Source: Pelagibacterales bacterium SAG-MED47
Lineage (GTDB): Bacteria > Pseudomonadota > Alphaproteobacteria > Pelagibacterales > Pelagibacteraceae
Length of the DNA: 64,000 nt
Assembly: GCA_014653355.1 (NCBI GenBank)
Contig: JACWEO010000003.1
Location: 49,279 to 113,278, forward strand
Direction of reading: 5' to 3'
The translations under genes and the position numbers were made by a program. Under the pieces are notes generated by a model, which was not told the DNA's origin, did not search any database, and was given only the letters and a program-made list of their open reading frames with translations. Positions 13,435-30,742 of this stretch are shown in pieces. The number at the start of each line of letters is the position of its first letter. The first letter of the stretch is position 1.

Positions 13435-14373
13435 TTACTTAGTCCACCTCTGCCAAACTTTTTTGTTGTCAGCTAACCATTTTTTAGCAGCGTCTTCATG
13501 AGTCATTTTATATAAATCGACTAACGCAGCCATTGCTCCAATTTGACTAGTATTAAAAGACAGTTTGTTAAACATTGCTGCGGCTGCTGGATGTGTTTTT
13601 GGGAAATTCTCATTAACAACTTTTTTCAAATAACCGTCAGGAGCTCCACATTTTCCATCACCACCATCTACTGGTCTACAACCATCATAATAAGGTGGGA
13701 AATCAATAAATGTAAAACCAGCACCATCTGTAAAGTTAGGAGTCCAATTATAAATTATAGTTCCTCTTCTCTCTTTTTTAGCAGCTTTAAGCTCTGCCCA
13801 TAATGCATCTGCACCAGCAGCAAATTTTACTGTCCAAAGGTCACCAAGTCCAAGAGCTTCTATTCTTTGAGGTATAAGATCTCCGTGCCAACTTTGCGGA
13901 CCTTCGAGCATACGTCCTTTTCCACCAGAGTCTCGAGTTGCAAATTTTTTCGCACAATCAGGATTTTTTAAAGCATTCCAATCAGGTAATCCTGGACAAT
14001 ATTTTACAGCCCAATCTGGATAACCCATATCTGCAATTATTCTTGCTTCATGATCACCCCAGTCTATAACACCGCCTTTATCCCTTGCTGTATCAAAAGA
14101 TTTACCAAAAGCAGATTCCCAAACTTCATGTGAAATTGTTACGTCACCAATTCTAATAGACTCATAAACAGTTTGTGAGTCTGCTGGAACGTACTTAACG
14201 TTATTACCCATACTTTCAAAAATTCCACCAATTACATATGCCATAACAACTTGGCTTGACCAATGGTGAGTAGGAATAACTATGGGCTTTTTACTATCTG
14301 CAGCATTTGATAATCCTGTAAAGCTTACTAAAAAAATTATCATTGCAGACAAAAATGATATTATTTTTCTCAT
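13435..14373 (-). CDS. Glycine betaine/quaternary amine-type ABC transporter substrate-binding protein (OpuAC/ProX-like)
   Basis: Signal peptide plus PIVIPTHHWSSQVVMAYVIGGIFESMG, EVWESAFGKSF, LWAELKAAKKERRGTIIYNWTPNF. Confidence 0.82.
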   Translation of the reverse strand: MRKIISFLSAMIIFLVSFTGLSNAADSKKPIVIPTHHWSSQVVMAYVIGGIFESMGNNVKYVPADSQTVYESIRIGDVTISHEVWESAFGKSFDTARDKGGVIDWGDHEARIIADMGYPDWAVKYCPGLPDWNALKNPDCAKKFATRDSGGKGRMLEGPQSWHGDLIPQRIEALGLGDLWTVKFAAGADALWAELKAAKKERRGTIIYNWTPNFTDGAGFTFIDFPPYYDGCRPVDGGDGKCGAPDGYLKKVVNENFPKTHPAAAAMFNKLSFNTSQIGAMAALVDLYKMTHEDAAKKWLADNKKVWQRWTK

Positions 14374-14469: not shown

Positions 14470-15432
14470 ATGAAAAATATTTTAATTATTGGTGGTGGAG
14501 CTATGGGTTCGGCATTTTCGATACCATGTTTAGAAAATAATAATAGGGTAACAATTACTGAACCTTATAGTAAAAAATTTATTAAAAACCTTTCATCTAA
14601 AAATAAATTTCATTCAGCTTTAAAAATAAAACTACCAAAAAAATTAAGATTTAAAAAATTTTCTCATGATTTATTTAATGAAAAATTTGATTTAATTGTA
14701 ATTGCTCTAAGCCTTTCCGGAATTGATTTTATTGGTAACTATTTAGATAATTTAAAGATTAAAACTTCAATTTTAGTCCTGACAAAAGGTTTAAAATATG
14801 AAAAAAAAAAAAGGAAAATTTTAACTATTTCAGAAAAATTTCAGAAAAATTATAATTTATCAAACATTTCTATTCTAAAAGGACCTTGCTTAGCTAAAGA
14901 ACTAGTAAGAAAAAATCAGACGAGTGTTGTTATTGCTAATAAAAACATCAATAAAGCTAAGCAAATTGGTAAAATGATTTCTACCGATTATTACTTAACA
15001 GAATTTTCTAGTGATATTATTGGAATAGAAGTTTGTTCAGCAATAAAGAATATTTATTCGATGATAATTGGGGCAGGACAAAGTTTAAATGCTTCATCAA
15101 ATTTGTTTCAGAAATCTGTCATAGAAATGAATTATTTAACCAAATATTTTAAAGGTAATGGGGAAACTACATTGAGTCTTGCGGGAGTTGGTGATCTTTA
15201 TGTAAGTGCAGCTGGGGGTAGAAACAGTAAAATGGGAAGTTATCTCGGTAAAGGTTTTACATTCAAAACTGCAAAAAAAAAATTTATGCCAAATGATACT
15301 GTTGAAGGAGAACAATTAGCAAGAGAAATAGCCCCTTTTATTTTTAAAAAAGTTAACAAAAAAAAAATTCCCTTGATGATAAACTTACTTAGAACAGTAA
15401 TTAGAAATAAGAAACTTAAAATTAAAGTTTAA
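14470..15432 (+). CDS. gpsA: NAD(P)-dependent glycerol-3-phosphate dehydrogenase-like protein
   Basis: Rossmann [50 protein letters not shown]. Confidence 0.75.
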
Positions 15433-17120
15433 AATAATCCCTCTGTTTCACCTTTTTTATTAAGTTTAATTGAATTAGCAGCAGGAACTTTTGGCAAACC
15501 TGGCATTGTCATAATTGATCCACAAACGACAACAATAAATTCAGCTCCAGATGATAATCTTACTTCTCTAATTGGTATTTCATGATTTGTTGGAGCTCCT
15601 TTACGTTTTGGATCAGTAGAAAAACTATATTGGGTTTTAGCTATACAAACTGGTAAATGTCCGTGACCATTATTTTCAAAAATTTTTAGTTGCTTTTTTA
15701 CCTCATCATTTGCTGAAATTTTATTAGCTCTATAAATTTCCTTAGCGATTAAATCAATTTTGTCCCACAATTTAAGTTCATTTTTATATAAAAAATTAAA
15801 TTTATTTTTGGTTTTGTTTTTTTTACAAATCTTAACAACTTTTTTTGCAAGATCTATTGTACCTTTTCCACCCTTTGCCCAATGTCTACATTCGCTTACT
15901 TCTACATTCACATTATCACAGAAATTCAAAACTGTTTTTACTTCTTTAGTTGTATCTAATACAAAGTGATTTATAGCAACTATTGGTTCTAAATTAAATT
16001 TTTTAATATTTTGAATGTGTCGTTCTAAGTTAACCAAACCTTTTTTTAAAGCATCAACATTCTCTATTTTCAAATCTTTTTTTTCAACACCTCCATGCAT
16101 TTTTAAAGCTCTTATTGTTGCAACAATAACAACACATCTTGGATTTAGACCAGCTTTTCTACATTTGATATCTAAGAATTTTTCAGCACCAAGGTCCGCT
16201 CCGAAACCTGCTTCTGTAACCACATAATCAGACAATTTTAAAGCTGCTTTGGTTGCAATAACTGAGTTACATCCATGAGCAATATTTGCAAAAGGACCTC
16301 CATGAATAATAGCTGGATTATTTTCTAAACTTTGAGTTACATTAGGCCGTATTGCTTCCTTAAGTAAAACAGTCATTGGTCCATGAGCATTAAGATCTTT
16401 AGCATAAAGTGGATTTCCCTCTTTATTATAACCAATAGTTATATTCCCAATTCTTTTTTCTAAATCTTTTAGATCATTTGATAGACAGAATATTGCCATA
16501 ACCTCTGATGCTACAGTAATATCAAAACCATCAACTCTCTTAAAATTTTTTGCTATCCCACTTGTATTAATATCTATAAATCTTAAAGCGCGGTCATTCA
16601 TATCCATTACACGTTTCCAAACAATATTGCTTTCATCTATGTTAAGTTTATTTCCCCAATAAATATGGTTATCAATCATTGCTGACAATAGATTATGAGC
16701 AGAAGTAATTGCATGAAAGTCTCCAGTAAAATGTAAATTTATTTGTTCCATAGGAACAACTTGAGCATAGCCACCTCCAGCTGCCCCTCCTTTCATACCA
16801 AATGAGGGTCCTAAACTTGGCTCTCTTAAACAGACAATAGATTTCTTTCCAATTTTATTTAAACCATCGTTTAAACCAACAGAAGTTGTTGTTTTCCCTT
16901 CCCCAGCTGGTGTGGGGGTTATAGCTGTGACCAAAATTAGGTCACCACTTTTTTTTTTTTTTAATTTATTCAAAAATTCAAAATTTATTTTAGCAATATG
17001 TCTGCCCATTGGACTGAAGGCACTACTTTTATCTGGTATATTTATTTTTGCTAAAATTTTATTAATTGGCTTCATTTTAGCCTTCCTTGCTATTTCAATA
17101 TCTGATTTAAATTTAGGCAT
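15429..17120 (-). CDS. fhs: Formate--tetrahydrofolate ligase
   Basis: [67 protein letters not shown]. Confidence 0.97.
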
Positions 17121-17241: not shown

Positions 17242-18498
17242 ATGCAAAAATATTCAATTTTTAGTCTAATAAAAAATGCCTTCTCTAATCACAAAAAATG
17301 GGACTTAGCCTGGAAAGATCCAACACCAAAAAAAGAGTATGATGTAGTGATTATCGGAGGGGGAGGCCATGGACTGGCAACGGCGTATTATCTCGCAAAA
17401 GAGCACAATATTACAAATGTGGCTATCATTGAAAAAGGATGGATAGGGGGAGGAAATGTTGGTCGTAATACAACAATAATCAGATCAAATTATATGTACG
17501 ACGATAATGCATTGTTTAGTGAATTTGGAATGGATCTTTGGAGAAAAATGAGTCAAGACCTAAATTATAATGTGATGTTTTCTCCAAGAGGGATTATCAA
17601 CCTTGCACACTCAGATGCACAAATGAATATTTATGCAAGACGAGGTAATTCTATGCGATTGAATGGAATTGATGCAGAATTATTAAACCGAGAACAAGTA
17701 AGAGAAATTATTCCAATGGTAGATTTTTCTGAAAATGTTAGATTTCCAATTTTTGGTGGGTTAATGCAACCTAGCGCAGGAACTGCAAGACATGATGCGG
17801 TAGCATGGGGTTATGCAAGACAAGCAGACTCAATGGGAGTTGATATAATTCAAAATTGTGAAGTAAATGGTTTCGATATAACTGCTGGAAAAATAAATGG
17901 GTTAAGAACCTCTAGAGGAAATATTAAAGCAAAGAAAATTGGATTATGTGTTGCAGGTAGTACTAATATTTTAGCTGAAAAATTAAACATGACACTGCCA
18001 ATTGAAACCCATCTTTTACAAGCATGTGTTTCAGAGCCAGTGAAACCTATTTTAGACAAGGTAGTTACTTTTGGTGCTGGACATTTTTATATAAGTCAAT
18101 CTGACAAGGGCGAGATGGTTATGGGTGGTGATTTAGATGGCTATAATAGTTATGCGCAAAGAGGAAATTTACCAACACTTCAACATGTATTAACTGAGGG
18201 GATAGCTATGATGCCATTCTTAAGCAAATTAAAAATGCTTAGAACTTGGGGCGGTATAATGGATATGTCAATGGATGGTTCACCTATTATAGATAAAACT
18301 CATATCGAAGGTTTGTATTTAAATTGTGGATGGTGTTATGGTGGTTTTAAAGCTACTCCCGCATCTGGTTGGACATTTGCCCATACTATTGCTCAAGACA
18401 GAGTTCATGAATTAAATGCTGGATATAGTTTAAATAGATTTAGTACAGGTCATCTTCTTGATGAGAAAGGACTTGGTACAAAAACTTGGATTTCTTAA
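17242..18498 (+). CDS. soxB: Sarcosine oxidase subunit beta
   Basis: DVVIIGGGGHGLATAYYLAKEH FAD motif; first gene of a four-gene B-D-A-G order. Confidence 0.93.
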   Translation: MQKYSIFSLIKNAFSNHKKWDLAWKDPTPKKEYDVVIIGGGGHGLATAYYLAKEHNITNVAIIEKGWIGGGNVGRNTTIIRSNYMYDDNALFSEFGMDLWRKMSQDLNYNVMFSPRGIINLAHSDAQMNIYARRGNSMRLNGIDAELLNREQVREIIPMVDFSENVRFPIFGGLMQPSAGTARHDAVAWGYARQADSMGVDIIQNCEVNGFDITAGKINGLRTSRGNIKAKKIGLCVAGSTNILAEKLNMTLPIETHLLQACVSEPVKPILDKVVTFGAGHFYISQSDKGEMVMGGDLDGYNSYAQRGNLPTLQHVLTEGIAMMPFLSKLKMLRTWGGIMDMSMDGSPIIDKTHIEGLYLNCGWCYGGFKATPASGWTFAHTIAQDRVHELNAGYSLNRFSTGHLLDEKGLGTKTWIS

Positions 18499-18768
18499 AT
18501 GCTTTATATTAATTGCCCACATTGTGGATTGCGGTCACAAAACGAATTTTCTTACGGAGGTGATGCAACTGTTAAAAGACCTGATTTAAATAAAGAAATA
18601 TCAGATCAAGACTGGGATAATTTTGTTTATAATAGAAAAAGTTTAAGAGGAAAACATTGGGAATTATGGCAACACATATCAGGTTGTCGCCAATGGATTA
18701 AAGTTGAAAGAGATACTTCTACTCATGAAATTTTTAATACACTTAAAGCTAATGAGGAAACAATATAA
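18499..18768 (+). CDS. soxD: Sarcosine oxidase subunit delta
   Basis: CPHCGLRSQNEFSYGGDA...LWQHISGCRQWIKVERDT; Zn-binding small subunit. Confidence 0.94.
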   Translation: MLYINCPHCGLRSQNEFSYGGDATVKRPDLNKEISDQDWDNFVYNRKSLRGKHWELWQHISGCRQWIKVERDTSTHEIFNTLKANEETI

Positions 18769-21764
18769 TGGTTCAAAGCTTTAGATTAGATGGAGTAGGA
18801 TTAATTAAAAGAGATAAAAAACTTTCATTCAAATTTAATGGAAAAATCTATTATGGATATGAGGGGGATACCCTTGCTTCAGCCTTAATAGCAAATGGTA
18901 TTCATTTAGTTGGTAGAAGCTTTAAATATCACAGACCAAGAGGTTTTTTTGGTGCAGGTGTTGATGAGCCTTATGCAATTGTTCAACTATTTAGAAATGG
19001 TGAAACTGAACCAAATATAAAAGCCACAGAACAGGAACTTTTTGAAGGGTTAGAGGCAAGTAGTGTAAATTGTTGGCCTAGCGTTAACTTTGATATTGGA
19101 GCAATAAATAATTTTTTAAAAATATTTTTACCTGCAGGTTTTTATTATAAGACATTTATGTGGCCAAAAAGTTTTTGGTATAAAATTTATGAGCCATTGA
19201 TCAGAAAAGCTGCTGGTTTAGGAACTGTGTCAACAAGCCATGACAAAGAAAGATATGAACATAAATACGAATATTGTGATTTATTAATAGCTGGTTCAGG
19301 GCCATCTGGATTAGCAAGTGCGTATGCTGCAGCCAAAAATGGAGCAAGAGTAATTTTAGCAGAAGACAAATCACGTTTCGGAGGCACTTTATTAACTAAC
19401 GATGTAAATATTGGAAATAAATCAGGCAAAGAATGGGCAGAAGGTATTATTTCTGAACTCAAAGAAATGCCTAATGTGATAGTTAAAAATAGGTCTCAGG
19501 TTTTTGGTTATTATGATCACAACATGTTAGTAATGACAGAAAGAATAAGTGATCATTTACCTATAACAAAAAAATTTCATCCAAAACAAAGACTTTGGTA
19601 TATTAGAGCTCAAGAAGTTCTGATCTCGAGTGGTTCTATAGAAAGACCATTGGTATTTGGAAATAATGATACTCCAGGCGTAATGCTTTCTTCAGCAGCA
19701 AAGGAATATTTAAAAGTTTATGGAGTTTTAGTTGGAAAAAAACCACTTATTTTTACCAATAATGACAGTGGTTATGAAACAGCAATTGAATTTAAAAAGA
19801 ACGGGATTGATCCAGTAATTTTAGATACAAGAAAAAATCCACAATCTGAAATAGTTGATGAGGCAAAACACTTAAAAATAAATATTAAGTTTAGTTATGT
19901 AGTTGTTGCTGCTAAAGGATATAAAAAAGTAAAATCTGCTGATATAGCTCAAATTTCTGATGATAAAGAACAACTTGGAAAGTTAGAGAATGTAAAATGT
20001 GATTGTATATGTGTTTCTGGGTTTTGGACACCTACTATCCACTTAGCTTCACAATCTGGGAATAAAACAACTTTTGATGAAAATATTGATGCTTTTGTCC
20101 CTGGGATATCAAAACAAAATGAAAGAACATTAGGTGCAGCCAATGGAGAATATAGATTATCTGAAACCTTAAAGAATTCATTTGAAACTGGTTATGAGCT
20201 ATCAAAAAAGATCACTAATAATGATAATAAAGTTTCTTTTCCAAATGTACTTGAAAAAAAATCAACTGTTCATGATAAATTTTGGTGTGTTCCATTACCA
20301 AAAGGTAAAAACTATAAAAGATTTTTAGATTTTCAAAACGATGTTGCAGTTTCAGATATAGAGATAGCACTTAAAGAGGGATATCGATCAATTGAACACG
20401 TAAAAAGATATACTACTTTAGGCATGGCAACTGACCAAGGTAAAACAAGTAATCTTAATGGTTTACAATTAGTTTCTAAAATAGAAAATAAAGTTGTTCC
20501 TGCAGTAGGTCATACCACTTTTAGACCTCCATATACACCAGTCTCTATAGGAGCAATTGTTGGAAGAGAAATTGGTAAACATTCAAAACCTACAAGAAAA
20601 TCTCCAATGCATTCATGGCATGAAAAAAATAATGCAGTTTTTGTTGATGCAGGAGTATGGTTGAGACCTAGATACTATAAACGAGGTAATGAAAATTTAT
20701 TTGAGGGATCAAAAAGAGAAGCAAAAAATGTAAGAAGAAATGTTGGTGTATGTGATGTTACAACTTTAGGTAAAATTGATATTAAAGGACCTGATGCAGC
20801 AGAGCTTCTAAATCGAGTTTATACTAATGCATGGTTGAAATTACCCATTGGAAAAGCTAGATACGGTGTCATGTTAAGAGAAGATGGAATTGTAATGGAT
20901 GATGGAACAACGACAAGAATCTCAGAAAACCATTATCATATGACTACTACTACAGCTCAGGCAGCAAATGTTCTATCTCATTTAGAATATTACTTACAAT
21001 TAGTTTGGCCAGAATTGAATGTAAATGTTGTTTCAACTACTGAACAATGGGCTGGGGCTGCGATAGCAGGACCAAAATCCAGAGATTTATTGCAAAAATT
21101 ATTTCCAAATTTCGATGTATCAAATGAGGGTTTACCTTTTATGGGTTATATGGAAGGAGAGTTATTTGGTGTAAAAGCAAGAATTTTTAGAATTTCTTTT
21201 TCTGGGGAGTTAGCTTATGAAGTAAATGTTGAGTCTGACAATGGGAACTTTATGTGGGAAAAAATTATGGAAATTGGTAAAGAGTTAAAGATTCAACCTT
21301 ATGGAACTGAGGCTTTATCAACATTAAGAATTGAAATGGGACATGTTGCGGGGTCTGAGCTCGATGGAAGAACGATACCTTATGATAATTCCTTAGAGGG
21401 ATTAGTAAGTAAGAAGAAAGACTTCATTGGCAAAAGATCTTTGTCCAAGAAAGCTTTTAGCGCAGACGATAGGCAAAAAATTGTTGGCGTTATACCTTTA
21501 GATAAAAAAACAAGTATCCCAGAGGGTTCACATTTAGTCAAAGATTCAAAGGCGTCATTACCTAACCCAAAATTGGGATATATTTCTGCTTCTTGTTGGA
21601 GTGTTGAACATGATAATCCATTTTCTCTTGCTATACTTAAAGATGGAAAAAACATGATTGGTAAAAAATTATTTGTAATGTCTCCACTTAAAAATAAAAT
21701 AATTCCAGTTGAGATTGTTTCATCACATTATGTTGATCCGAAAGGTGAAAGAGCAAGATCATGA
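18768..21764 (+). CDS. soxA: Sarcosine oxidase subunit alpha
   Basis: 998 aa; N-terminal 2Fe-2S-like fold, FAD domain LLIAGSGPSGLASAYAAAKNG, C-terminal GcvT domain. Confidence 0.95.
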   Translation: MVQSFRLDGVGLIKRDKKLSFKFNGKIYYGYEGDTLASALIANGIHLVGRSFKYHRPRGFFGAGVDEPYAIVQLFRNGETEPNIKATEQELFEGLEASSVNCWPSVNFDIGAINNFLKIFLPAGFYYKTFMWPKSFWYKIYEPLIRKAAGLGTVSTSHDKERYEHKYEYCDLLIAGSGPSGLASAYAAAKNGARVILAEDKSRFGGTLLTNDVNIGNKSGKEWAEGIISELKEMPNVIVKNRSQVFGYYDHNMLVMTERISDHLPITKKFHPKQRLWYIRAQEVLISSGSIERPLVFGNNDTPGVMLSSAAKEYLKVYGVLVGKKPLIFTNNDSGYETAIEFKKNGIDPVILDTRKNPQSEIVDEAKHLKINIKFSYVVVAAKGYKKVKSADIAQISDDKEQLGKLENVKCDCICVSGFWTPTIHLASQSGNKTTFDENIDAFVPGISKQNERTLGAANGEYRLSETLKNSFETGYELSKKITNNDNKVSFPNVLEKKSTVHDKFWCVPLPKGKNYKRFLDFQNDVAVSDIEIALKEGYRSIEHVKRYTTLGMATDQGKTSNLNGLQLVSKIENKVVPAVGHTTFRPPYTPVSIGAIVGREIGKHSKPTRKSPMHSWHEKNNAVFVDAGVWLRPRYYKRGNENLFEGSKREAKNVRRNVGVCDVTTLGKIDIKGPDAAELLNRVYTNAWLKLPIGKARYGVMLREDGIVMDDGTTTRISENHYHMTTTTAQAANVLSHLEYYLQLVWPELNVNVVSTTEQWAGAAIAGPKSRDLLQKLFPNFDVSNEGLPFMGYMEGELFGVKARIFRISFSGELAYEVNVESDNGNFMWEKIMEIGKELKIQPYGTEALSTLRIEMGHVAGSELDGRTIPYDNSLEGLVSKKKDFIGKRSLSKKAFSADDRQKIVGVIPLDKKTSIPEGSHLVKDSKASLPNPKLGYISASCWSVEHDNPFSLAILKDGKNMIGKKLFVMSPLKNKIIPVEIVSSHYVDPKGERARS

Positions 21765-22348
21765 GCTCAACATCAGCTTTAGAAAGCATTCATTCAAAAG
21801 GTAAATTTGGAGATCATAAATATAAAAATAAAAATGAAATTTTGAAAATTTCTGAAATAAAAAATTTATTAATAGTCCAGATAGCACAGTATAAATGTTC
21901 TAAAGTTTTAAGTGAGACCATTGATTTAGATAATTTAAAATTAAAAGACGTACCATTCAGTGTAGCTAATAATGATAATACAAGAATTTTATGGAACGGC
22001 CCGAAAAATTGGCTTCTAGTATCAACTAAAAAAAATTTACTTAAAGACATCTCAAAGATTTTAAAAGATAAAGATTTCGCTTTAACAGATATATCGCATT
22101 CAAAAGCCATTATTGAAATAGAGGGAAAAGATGTAAAGGAAGTTCTAAAAAAAGGATGTCCTTATAATTTCAATATTTTGGAAAAAAATAATTCAATTAA
22201 TTCAGTGTACAATGGGATAGCATTTACGGTTGATATGCTTCAAAGTGATCCAAATAAAGTAAGATTGTTTACTCTAAGAAGTTTTGGTGAATCTTTATAT
22301 CACTCTATTACAGATGCATCATTAGAATTTGGTTTTAAATCAATATAA
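21761..22348 (+). CDS. soxG: Sarcosine oxidase subunit gamma
   Basis: Position and fold-like features (LWNGPKNWLLVS, ALTDISHSKAIIEIEGKDVKEVLKKGCPYN). Confidence 0.88.
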   Translation: MSSTSALESIHSKGKFGDHKYKNKNEILKISEIKNLLIVQIAQYKCSKVLSETIDLDNLKLKDVPFSVANNDNTRILWNGPKNWLLVSTKKNLLKDISKILKDKDFALTDISHSKAIIEIEGKDVKEVLKKGCPYNFNILEKNNSINSVYNGIAFTVDMLQSDPNKVRLFTLRSFGESLYHSITDASLEFGFKSI

Positions 22349-27346: not shown

Positions 27347-28312
27347 ATGAAATTTAAAATAGATAATTTACAATACTGCAATTGGTCTAGAAAAATTTTT
27401 GAAATTAATAGAGAGGCTGGGCTTGATGCAGTGCATGTAACAATAGTATATCATGAGGATTTTGATGAACATTTGAGTGAAATCCAAAAATGGAAAAAAT
27501 TATTTGAAGAAAACTCAGACTTAATTTTTCTCGGAAACAATTTCAAGGATATTGAGAAAGCTAATAAAGAGAAAAAAACAGCAATTTTTTTTGGATTTCA
27601 AAATTGCTCACCTATCGAGGATGATATTAATTTAGTTGAAAAAGTTCATGAACTTGGATGTAGATTTATGCAACTAACTTATAATAATCAATCCTTACTA
27701 GCTACTGGATGTTATGAAAAAATTGACAGTGGGGTAACAAACTTTGGCCGAGAAGTAATAAAAGAAATGAATAAAGTAGGTGTTGTTGTAGACATGTCTC
27801 ATTCAGCAGAGAAAAGTACTTTTGATGCAATAGAAATAAGTGAAAAACCAATTGCTATAACTCACGCTAACCCATCATTTTGGCACGCTGCTAAAAGAAA
27901 TAAATCTTCAGAATTATTAAAAACTTTGAGTGATAGTGGTGGTATTCTAGGTTTTTCTCTTTATCCGCATCATTTAAAAAATAATACAAATTGTACTTTA
28001 GAAAGCTTTTGTGAAATGATAGCCAGAACAGCTGAAGTTATGAGTGTAAAAAATATTGGAATTGGTTCTGATCTTTGTTTAAATCAACCGGATGAAGTTG
28101 TTGAATGGATGAGAAATGGAACTTGGTCTAAAAGTAAAAATTATGGAGAAGGATCCAAAAATAAACCAGGTTTTCCAATTCAACCAAAATGGTTTGAAGA
28201 TGCAAGAGGTTTTAAAAACTTAGAAACAGGTTTAAAAAAAATCGGGTTTTCAGAAACTGAGACTAATGGAATACTTGGCAATAATTGGTATAATTTTTAT
28301 AAAACTATTTAG
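27347..28312 (+). CDS. Membrane dipeptidase family (peptidase M19)
   Basis: LGCRFMQLTYNNQS, VVVDMSHSAEKSTFDAIEIS, ITHANPSFWHAAKRN, IGIGSDL. Confidence 0.87.
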   Translation: MKFKIDNLQYCNWSRKIFEINREAGLDAVHVTIVYHEDFDEHLSEIQKWKKLFEENSDLIFLGNNFKDIEKANKEKKTAIFFGFQNCSPIEDDINLVEKVHELGCRFMQLTYNNQSLLATGCYEKIDSGVTNFGREVIKEMNKVGVVVDMSHSAEKSTFDAIEISEKPIAITHANPSFWHAAKRNKSSELLKTLSDSGGILGFSLYPHHLKNNTNCTLESFCEMIARTAEVMSVKNIGIGSDLCLNQPDEVVEWMRNGTWSKSKNYGEGSKNKPGFPIQPKWFEDARGFKNLETGLKKIGFSETETNGILGNNWYNFYKTI

Positions 28313-28314
28313 AA

Positions 28315-29976
28315 ATGAATGTAGAATTAAGAGATCCCAATATCATTATGAAGCTTTCAAGGCTGGGTTCATTTCACCAATCTAGATTGTCTTTTTTAAG
28401 AAGTTTTTTAAATGAATTTAAAGATTGGGATTATAAAAGAGATTTATTTGATTTAGATAAAGATGGATTTGGAACAGCAGTATATTCTTTTAAAAAAAAA
28501 GACAGAATTTATTCTTTAATTTGTTACGCCAACAAAATCAATGATAATGAAAGATCAGATAGAGTAATAGCAACCAAGTGGGACGCAGCTTTTACATTGC
28601 ATGATGGTGTGCCTTTAAAAGAAGATATTGAACGATTAAGAAATGAAGTTCCAAAACAAGAAGTTGGTAGATTGTCTTATAAAGAATTAACATTATCAAG
28701 AGCAAATAAATCAGTAAGAGTATTTGATCATGTAGTTGAAAGTTTAAGCAATGGATCTCAACCAAATTTAAACTTACTTGAAAAAGTGGGATATTTGTAC
28801 AGAACAACAGCAGTATATGGATCAGGTAAGTTTGGTTTAGCAGATCGATTTAGAATTAAAAATAGAGAAGAAATTAACGGACCATTTAGATTAGAAATGA
28901 TGCTAGTTTATCTAGTCAGACAATTTACATTTGATCAAGTTAATCACGTAGCAAAAAATAGAAATCCTAAATCAGCTGTTAAACTTGATCCAAAAATTTG
29001 TAGAAATTTGGGAATTGGAAATTCAACTGGATTAGGGATGGCCCCATTTATTGTTAATCATCCAACATTACTTAATAATTGGATACTTAGTAGAGAAGTT
29101 GCACTCAAAAAAATTAGAGAAATTAAAATTGCTGAAACTAAAGATATAAGTTTGTTTAAAGAGTGTGTCAAAAATTCTCTTAAAAATATTACTAGTTGGA
29201 ACACAGAGAGTGAATATCAACTTAAAAAGATAAAGCTTTTACTTCAAGATGTTAGAAAATTTATTAATTTTCTTGAAAACGAATTTAACTTTAAAAAAAA
29301 TTATCCTTTTAATGAAATTTACTTTTGGCTAGAGAAAGAAACCTGTGAGGAGTGTATTGAGTATATTGTTTCAATAATGATGGAACCATTTGGTGAAATA
29401 GTTCAACCTTTGATTAGTCAAATGAGCTCAGAAGAAGAAAAATACTTTAATATTCCTACTGAGCGAAATGTAGAAGACTTAAAGAAAATTTTAGAAAATA
29501 AGTATTCAGATATTCTGAAAATTGATTTTAATAAAGAAGATAGTAATCAAAAATTTTGGTTTATTTCAAAAAACAAAGAAGAACCAAGATTGGCTAATCG
29601 TTTTGAAGAGAGTGGTGCAGATTTAGAACAACCCCTAGCCATAGCAAGAGATATAAAAAAACTATATGAAAGACTTTTGTCTTTGAAAAATAATTTGAAA
29701 ATTAATCAGTTTTTAATTGATAATTCTGATTTAAGACATGTTGTAAGAAGGGCTTTTATTATTGAAAACTTTCCATATTCAGAAATACAAGACAATACTA
29801 TAGGAGAAAATATAGTACCAATTGATATGCTGCGATTGAAATTATCTTTTTTTGGAGCTTTAAAGTTTGACCCCAGATCTGACAAGTGGCTGAGAATATG
29901 TATGTTTCAAGGTGCACCACTTCCAAGTGAATTAAAAGATTACGATGAGCAATGGGTTTATAAAACCTTTTCTTAA
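28315..29976 (+). CDS. Conserved uncharacterised 553-aa protein
   Basis: Long intact ORF starting 2 nt after the M19 stop; no catalytic motif recognised. Confidence 0.8.
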   Translation: MNVELRDPNIIMKLSRLGSFHQSRLSFLRSFLNEFKDWDYKRDLFDLDKDGFGTAVYSFKKKDRIYSLICYANKINDNERSDRVIATKWDAAFTLHDGVPLKEDIERLRNEVPKQEVGRLSYKELTLSRANKSVRVFDHVVESLSNGSQPNLNLLEKVGYLYRTTAVYGSGKFGLADRFRIKNREEINGPFRLEMMLVYLVRQFTFDQVNHVAKNRNPKSAVKLDPKICRNLGIGNSTGLGMAPFIVNHPTLLNNWILSREVALKKIREIKIAETKDISLFKECVKNSLKNITSWNTESEYQLKKIKLLLQDVRKFINFLENEFNFKKNYPFNEIYFWLEKETCEECIEYIVSIMMEPFGEIVQPLISQMSSEEEKYFNIPTERNVEDLKKILENKYSDILKIDFNKEDSNQKFWFISKNKEEPRLANRFEESGADLEQPLAIARDIKKLYERLLSLKNNLKINQFLIDNSDLRHVVRRAFIIENFPYSEIQDNTIGENIVPIDMLRLKLSFFGALKFDPRSDKWLRICMFQGAPLPSELKDYDEQWVYKTFS

Positions 29977-29979
29977 ATT

Positions 29980-30591
29980 ATGAAATCTTTAAGTGAAATT
30001 GAGACAACAGTAAAAAGAGCAAGTCGAGCCGCTGGTTATTCTTGGGGTATAGCTGAAGAGGTTGGGAAATCTATAAGGTTATCTGAATTATTTGGTTTCC
30101 CAGGAATTAAACACCTTAATCAATATTATCAAAATAAAAAAAAAGAAAATTTTGATAATATAAAATTAATCAATAAGGTTAACAAATCAAATGGATTATC
30201 TTTTTGTCCAATCACTTTAGGAGTAAATTTTATTGATCAAGTTAAGAACATAGAAACTTTAACAAAGTGTTCAGTTGAAAAATTAGCTTATCCATTATTA
30301 CTTTTGCCTTTTTTAAGTAGAGGTTCAGAAATAATTGGAAAAAAATTATTATTTTCATTTGATGATAGTAAATTTTTGTTAAATTTCAATGTAAGTATTT
30401 CCTCAAATTTTTGGAACAAAGAAATTCCAATATTAGCAAATCAAGTAGAAATAAGTTTTTTAAACAATGAAGATAATTTTTCTGACAACGATTGGAAAAA
30501 TCTTTACAAGCTTGCTGAGGATACTTTTGTAGAGGAAACAGATAGTTTAAAGGAGAGTGCTGCAGGCGCTGGTTTGACTGACAATGATTGA
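29980..30591 (+). CDS. DUF3726-like protein
   Basis: MKSLSEIETTVKRASRAAGYSWGIAEEVGKSIRLSELFGFPG resembles the DUF3726 N-terminus from recall; 3-nt gap to the previous gene. Confidence 0.6.
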   Translation: MKSLSEIETTVKRASRAAGYSWGIAEEVGKSIRLSELFGFPGIKHLNQYYQNKKKENFDNIKLINKVNKSNGLSFCPITLGVNFIDQVKNIETLTKCSVEKLAYPLLLLPFLSRGSEIIGKKLLFSFDDSKFLLNFNVSISSNFWNKEIPILANQVEISFLNNEDNFSDNDWKNLYKLAEDTFVEETDSLKESAAGAGLTDND

Positions 30592-30742
30592 AGATGAAGA
30601 AATTGAGAAAAACTTAAGAGATTTAGATAATATATGTGATGAATGCAAAGAAGAGGATGAAAGTGTTTCCCAAAACTTAATTTTAACTGGTTTTAAAATT
30701 TGTAAATCTTGTAGAATTTCAAAAACTATTTTTCCAATTTAG
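30584..30742 (+). CDS. Unannotated 52-aa zinc-ribbon-like small protein
   Basis: My translation: MIEDEEIEKNLRDLDNICDECKEEDESVSQNLILTGFKICKSCRISKTIFPI; two CxxC knuckles; overlaps the upstream stop by 8 nt. Confidence 0.65.
   Translation: MIEDEEIEKNLRDLDNICDECKEEDESVSQNLILTGFKICKSCRISKTIFPI

Follow-up and report, generated by a model that had tools for sequence, protein, structure and literature searches.

Catabolism of trigonelline (tgn genes) opens an N-methylpyridinium carboxylate and then employs an aldehyde dehydrogenase (ALDH), using a two-component flavin monooxygenase, and would be chemically analogous to the route considered below. The related osmolyte homarine (N-methylpicolinate) is drawn down quickly by R. 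pomeroyi (PMC12817926), and N-methylglutamate dehydrogenase (Mgd), which belongs to the N-methylglutamate pathway (gmaS-mgsABC-mgdABCD), takes part in its catabolism (PMC13390433); a conserved homarine pathway involving Mgd is attributed there to a 2026 Nature Microbiology paper by Ferrer-Gonzalez et al. (doi 10.1038/s41564-026-02313-7). The dimethylglycine dehydrogenase genes dgcAB of Pseudomonas aeruginosa and Vibrio natriegens are preceded by a dipeptidase gene, pepD, in the pepD-hp-dgcAB-fixAB region (PMC12093977). We describe here a four-gene cassette occupying positions 27347-30742 (+ strand) of a 64,000-nucleotide stretch, termed the window throughout, from Pelagibacterales bacterium SAG-MED47, a member of the Pelagibacteraceae (SAR11). 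It encodes an M19-like protein, a 553-amino acid (aa) protein designated P553, a DUF3726 protein and a 52-aa CxxC...CxxC peptide. We give roughly even credence to the reading that this cassette represents, in SAR11 form, a module for betaine catabolism, in which the first three proteins would constitute one heteromeric enzyme whose substrate is a cyclic N-methyl betaine, with homarine the likeliest candidate.

The tight packing of the four open reading frames (ORFs), asserted in a preliminary description of this DNA, was confirmed, with spacings of 2, 3 and -8 nucleotides (nt). Sampling within SAR11 comprised 97 genomes of the order, and 113 loci for gap statistics. Without exception, gaps ranged from -4 to +3 nt between M19 and P553 and from -4 to +9 nt between P553 and DUF3726, and the DUF3726 and 52-aa genes overlapped by precisely 8 nt at every one of 102 loci. 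Gaps so tightly bounded over the 113 loci are more than chance. The M19-P553-DUF3726 arrangement was retained at these loci (DUF3726 was undetected in two), with order and orientation the same in all of the first 30, save that DUF3726 is missing in L004. P553 was found in 70 of the 97 genomes and the M19 protein in 69, the mismatches between these counts involving one genome with a partial P553 match (G096) and another with a weak M19 match only (G085). The source genome (1.13 Mb in 43 contigs) has uncultured Pelagibacteraceae as its closest relatives, and a search of genome contigs gave no outside diversity, the best 80 matches all being from SAR11.

The association extends well beyond this order. 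Among 299 genomes of the phylum, DUF3726 occurred in 21 and P553 in 22, these being the same genomes plus one remote case, and P553 lay directly upstream of DUF3726 at 22 of 22 non-SAR11 loci. This survey of gene order bears out the earlier proposal of one functional unit, the genes proving not to be separable and P553 matching no known enzyme. The wider loci contain genes for LysR, ALDH, M19, a BCCT transporter, P553 and DUF3726, often with RidA (as in several gammaproteobacterial operons) or a full-length Ldh_2 enzyme. Phaeobacter porticola and Ruegeria TM1040 carry a sox-type BDAG operon, a helix-turn-helix regulator, LysR and then ALDH-M19-BCCT-P553-DUF3726-Ldh, the last group being represented by TM1040_RS02320-RS02345 in Ruegeria; the operon of Pseudomonas MPC6 also includes a BCCT transporter, and in Aminobacter and Shinella a betaine ABC transporter stands in its place beside the cassette. 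Because two unrelated types of betaine transporter interchange in this position, a betaine substrate is well evidenced. A remote triad, at 28-31% identity, is found on pSymA of Sinorhizobium meliloti and in Variovorax (L154:8947-12393 and L157:8941-12437), where P553 and M19 homologs flank a 236-242-aa protein with weak matches to Ldh_2 (0.005-0.025) and to the DUF3726 profile. These loci have transporters other than those of the betaine operons and, in S. meliloti, also an aminotransferase, SSADH and RidA. Since remote homologs keep the three proteins amid different transporters and downstream enzymes, we infer that P553, DUF3726 and M19 form a conserved functional core, of which the remote triad would represent a second use with distinct neighbours.

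P553 is the probable catalytic core of this triad. The preliminary description recognised no motif in it, and our searches agree: there was no family above cut-off in Pfam, none named in NCBIfam and no relative by sequence in the PDB. We set aside a weak Pfam match to CesT_Tir_1 as chance, its 17 bits falling short of the cut-off of 27. An alignment of 26 diverse members contains about 100 invariant positions, and on this account the protein appears enzyme-like. The AlphaFold2 model is confident (predicted local distance difference score, pLDDT, 86.1; predicted template-modelling score, pTM, 0.88) and has a predicted alpha/beta fold; a Foldseek comparison with the PDB returned no match (best E 0.63, template-modelling score about 0.1). 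With neither a recognised family nor a recognised fold, P553 probably represents an enzyme of a new kind.

The two proteins flanking P553 have recognisable ancestry. As with the other two cassette products, NCBIfam gave neither of them a named family. By profile alignment (E 1.2e-71, spanning positions 34-317 of 319) the M19-like protein belongs to PF01244, and shares a fold family with the membrane and renal dipeptidases (3id7, 1itq), whose beta-metal His residues (H152, H173) and catalytic Asp (D242) it keeps; these are invariant in the family alignment, and one Shinella copy has Asp in place of the first beta-metal His. However, the alpha-metal HxD motif and the bridging Glu of those dipeptidases are both lost. 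At the HxD site of the M19 family lies L8-Q9-Y10, invariant in 23 homologs within an ID[GN]LQY-type sequence; the Pfam profile match begins only at profile position 34. Opposite the bridging Glu of 3id7 and 1itq stands Q85, also invariant in the family alignment. The M19 proteins of the remote triads are likewise devoid of HxD and have Gln in place of the bridging Glu. Because of these losses we do not file the protein as a dipeptidase, as had been done previously, and it is probably not one. In its nearest solved structure by far, 2i5g (E 1.6e-56), a P. aeruginosa protein, the bridging Glu is likewise replaced by Gln.

The earlier DUF3726-like label proved to be a genuine Pfam match, and a derivation from Ldh_2 is indicated in addition. 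DUF3726 aligns in sequence and fold with the N-terminal part of the Ldh_2 family, which includes type 2 malate/lactate and ureidoglycolate dehydrogenases. A gammaproteobacterial homolog matches Ldh_2 at 38.5 bits (1e-9; cut-off 38.8), and the top 17 Foldseek matches to the model of the window protein are all Ldh_2 members, with probabilities mostly at least 0.9 and E values of 0.02 or worse. Because E was no better than 0.02, the fold evidence is supportive but not conclusive alone. Ldh_2 enzymes are about 335 aa long, whereas DUF3726 proteins have 203 aa in the window and about 190-255 aa elsewhere, and on length they do not qualify as full-length, catalytic, NAD(P)-binding Ldh_2 enzymes. Judged by alignment and predicted fold, DUF3726 is thus a truncated relative of Ldh_2. 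SAR11 and roseobacter copies show strong conservation of the C-terminal tail, AGAGLTDND. A literature search for DUF3726 found no paper.

The fourth cassette ORF appears to be a real translated gene, because its cysteines are conserved and its changes fall mostly in third codon positions: the CxxC pairs (C18, C21, C40 and C43) are kept in more than 95% of 102 copies, and differences from one relative number 5, 2 and 17 at codon positions 1, 2 and 3. The four cysteines of the zinc ribbon proposed earlier therefore stand, but any supporting family does not, neither Pfam nor NCBIfam offering one above cut-off. Weak matches to zf-Tnp_2, zf-C4pol, TmcA and Cas12f2, all below cut-offs, were rejected. 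The gene was not found at the three loci examined from a second SAR11 family (L168, L169, L172), and for this reason looks like a lineage-specific, apparently genus-specific addition. No small Cys-rich ORF occurred downstream of DUF3726 in 20 non-SAR11 loci.

In the window, 5 kb separate the cassette from a sox/mgd-type operon upstream of it, and the distance is similar in many members of the genus; in second-family SAR11 genomes the corresponding operon (that of soxA-1) is contiguous with the cassette. ALDH and Ldh genes are contiguous with it there too, the latter encoding a protein 50% identical to the Phaeobacter Ldh, versus 34.5% for another SAR11 Ldh. In a phylogenetic tree, the heterotetramer that neighbours the cassette of Phaeobacter and TM1040 joins the gmaS/mgs-linked Mgd at 100/100, and not the glyA-linked sarcosine oxidases. 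The roseobacter enzyme thereby falls in the Mgd clade of the N-methylglutamate pathway, although mgs and gmaS are not beside the roseobacter cassettes and that pathway does not include the triad. The functional link to Mgd comes through this roseobacter heterotetramer, the SAR11 one being only related. A second SAR11 copy, soxA-2, groups with the glyA-linked sarcosine oxidases, in a join that involves long branches.

A pathway consistent with these associations can be proposed, in which we infer complex formation, substrate and reaction order. P553, DUF3726 and the M19-like protein would act as one heteromeric enzyme in an unusual early step that opens the N-methylpyridinium ring of homarine by hydrolysis or reduction; this step is assigned to the triad because ALDH, Ldh and Mgd have been assigned, and opening is the step left without a recognised enzyme. 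ALDH would then oxidise the resulting aldehyde, and the full-length Ldh_2 enzyme would reduce the imine or enamine, giving N-methylglutamate or a closely related N-methyl dicarboxylic amino acid, from which the sarcosine-oxidase/Mgd-type heterotetramer would yield glutamate and a one-carbon (C1) unit by demethylation. Arrival at N-methylglutamate would entail the loss of one ring carbon as formate, with which the formate-tetrahydrofolate ligase-like gene beside the window's sox/mgd operon (named from its sequence by reading) is weakly consistent. The CxxC/CxxC peptide of SAR11 might serve as a metal-binding accessory. Variants of the scheme would release methylamine through RidA and GmaS, or begin from another betaine. 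The two-component flavin monooxygenase of the trigonelline route has no counterpart in the cassette. A bolder formulation, which we advance tentatively and regard as rather doubtful as a whole, is that P553 would found a new enzyme fold and, with repurposed M19 and truncated Ldh_2 subunits, would open the homarine ring with neither a flavin nor a Rieske oxygenase, the SAR11 cassette being a pared-down copy to which a CxxC peptide has been added.

Several observations weigh against the homarine scheme as applied to SAR11. No transporter permease, ALDH or Ldh gene adjoins the cassette in the window; the ALDH of the second family is 36% identical to that of roseobacters, so that orthology is not clear; SAR11 soxA-1 falls outside the Mgd clade, between Mgd and sarcosine oxidase; and many second-family genomes with P553 lack soxA-1. 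The genome of R. pomeroyi, a homarine user, was sought through its megaplasmid DNA as a check on P553 carriage, and was absent from the sampled genomes and from two candidate genera. The operon partners point to a betaine and to an N-methyl amino acid but do not single out one compound. A module of the same kind could feed another N-methylated osmolyte into the N-methylglutamate route, whether trigonelline, pipecolate- or other cyclic betaine, beta-alanine betaine or a methylamine releaser, and this we consider a serious possibility, if on balance an unlikely one. Release of methylamine would fit the GmaS-like gene beside the cassette at L172 and the RidA genes of several gammaproteobacterial operons, and linkage of tmaR to mgd persists without trimethylamine (TMA) genes (PMC13390433). 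On the other hand, homarine is the sole compound for which we found a literature link to Mgd outside methylamine oxidation.

Two further explanations take their cue from the M19 gene. The preliminary description drew a parallel to the dgcAB region of pseudomonads and its role in dimethylglycine/glycine-betaine catabolism; as in the cassette operons, an M19 gene adjoins betaine catabolic genes in this region, in both P. aeruginosa and V. natriegens (PMC12093977). The affinity of the M19-like protein for 2i5g and the abundance of GcvT/DMGDH-type genes in the window are in keeping with this. However, no counterpart of P553 or DUF3726 has been described in the dgc region, and the roseobacter partner is Mgd-type rather than a sarcosine oxidase. 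Furthermore, none of the named plasmid loci has an annotated dgcAB next to P553, though no directed search was made (an NADH:flavin oxidoreductase lies about 9 kb off in Shinella). The part of that proposal linking the cassette to betaines and N-methyl compounds is thus upheld by betaine uptake and Mgd partners, these being the best associations, and a dgcAB-type system is improbable. It is more improbable still that the cassette processes peptides, with a true M19 dipeptidase that P553 and DUF3726 would aid in dipeptide use. The Pfam M19 match of 242 bits and the retained His and Asp on the beta-metal side speak for it, but no aligned member, near or remote, retains HxD or the bridging Glu, and the operon partners are of betaine type, with no co-occurring peptide transporter; peptide utilisation was rejected on these grounds.

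The features of the window are collected in the table below. No BCCT transporter was found in 16 SAR11 genomes, and uptake by this means in SAR11 was rejected accordingly. The gene for an OpuAC-type protein, situated not far from the sox/mgd operon, has neither a permease nor an ATPase gene recognised next to it; the protein is possibly an uptake component for the cassette substrate. Directly downstream of the cassette, and convergent with it, is a gene for a predicted membrane protein that has no Pfam family; its position is conserved, yet identity is only 29-38% in most relatives. Farther on, a GcvT-fold protein has as its best match the dimethylsulfoniopropionate (DMSP) demethylase, below threshold (229 bits versus a cut-off of 410), and is likely a methyltransferase of the C1 metabolism group; a methanethiol-oxidase relative is followed by a 2Fe-2S ferredoxin-like protein. 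Near the second-family cassette there is a gene for an aspartyl/asparaginyl beta-hydroxylase-like protein of about 200 aa (L168:2012-2641, L169:18070-18699, L172:8117-8716), matching PF05118 in L168 and L172 and possibly a 2-oxoglutarate oxygenase of the pathway. In one SAR11 genome a type III glutamine synthetase (GmaS-like, 603 bits) is also encoded near the cassette (L172:8719-10059, - strand).

Table. Features of the cassette and of its surroundings in the window
Feature	Positions	Strand	Evidence
M19-like protein, 321 aa	27347..28312	+	PF01244 242 bits, PDB alignments, family alignment
P553, 553 aa, unnamed family, probable catalytic core	28315..29976	+	sequence searches, alignment, AlphaFold2, Foldseek
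DUF3726 protein, 203 aa, truncated Ldh_2 relative	29980..30591	+	PF12525 78 bits, Foldseek
52-aa CxxC...CxxC peptide, overlapping the DUF3726 gene by 8 nt	30584..30742	+	conserved overlap and Cys, codon-position bias
soxB/mgd-type beta subunit, probable partner enzyme	17242..18498	+	TIGR01373 676 bits; linked in many SAR11 genomes
soxD/mgd-type delta subunit	18499..18770	+	PF04267 3e-34
soxA/mgd-type alpha subunit (soxA-1)	18768..21764	+	TIGR01372 1296 bits, adjacency in second-family SAR11, tree
soxG/mgd-type gamma subunit	21761..22348	+	TIGR01375 2.8e-19
OpuAC-type glycine-betaine-binding protein	13435..14373	-	PF04069 119 bits
Formate-tetrahydrofolate ligase-like gene	15429..17120		
Predicted membrane protein, 188 aa	30739..31305	-	
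GcvT-fold protein, 452 aa	31450..32808	-	GCV_T 135 bits
Methanethiol-oxidase relative, 458 aa	35245..36621	+	163 bits versus cut-off 650

The roseobacter P553 operon, with five enzyme-like genes (ALDH, M19, P553, DUF3726 and Ldh) plus LysR, adjoins mgd-type genes. The homarine operon is reportedly named homABCDER, for five genes and a regulator, a composition that would match the six genes just listed; the name is unconfirmed and serves as a lead only. As far as the work of Ferrer-Gonzalez et al. is represented in the article citing it, the published homarine pathway may already describe the roseobacter form of the P553 operon; since the two operons are likely one and the same, the novelty of the present findings is limited to that extent. 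The window's cassette is distinguished by having no adjacent ALDH, Ldh, LysR or transporter gene, and by its extra 52-aa gene.

SAR11 bacteria rank with the most abundant cells of the ocean, and P553 is present in the majority of the genomes of the order sampled here. If the proposed function is correct, the cassette would provide a gene marker for the turnover of an abundant plankton osmolyte, and its products would represent a new enzyme architecture, combining two familiar folds that lack their standard active sites with a new fold. Opening of the homarine ring by the triad would then constitute a widespread, unrecognised step in the organic nitrogen cycle of the ocean.

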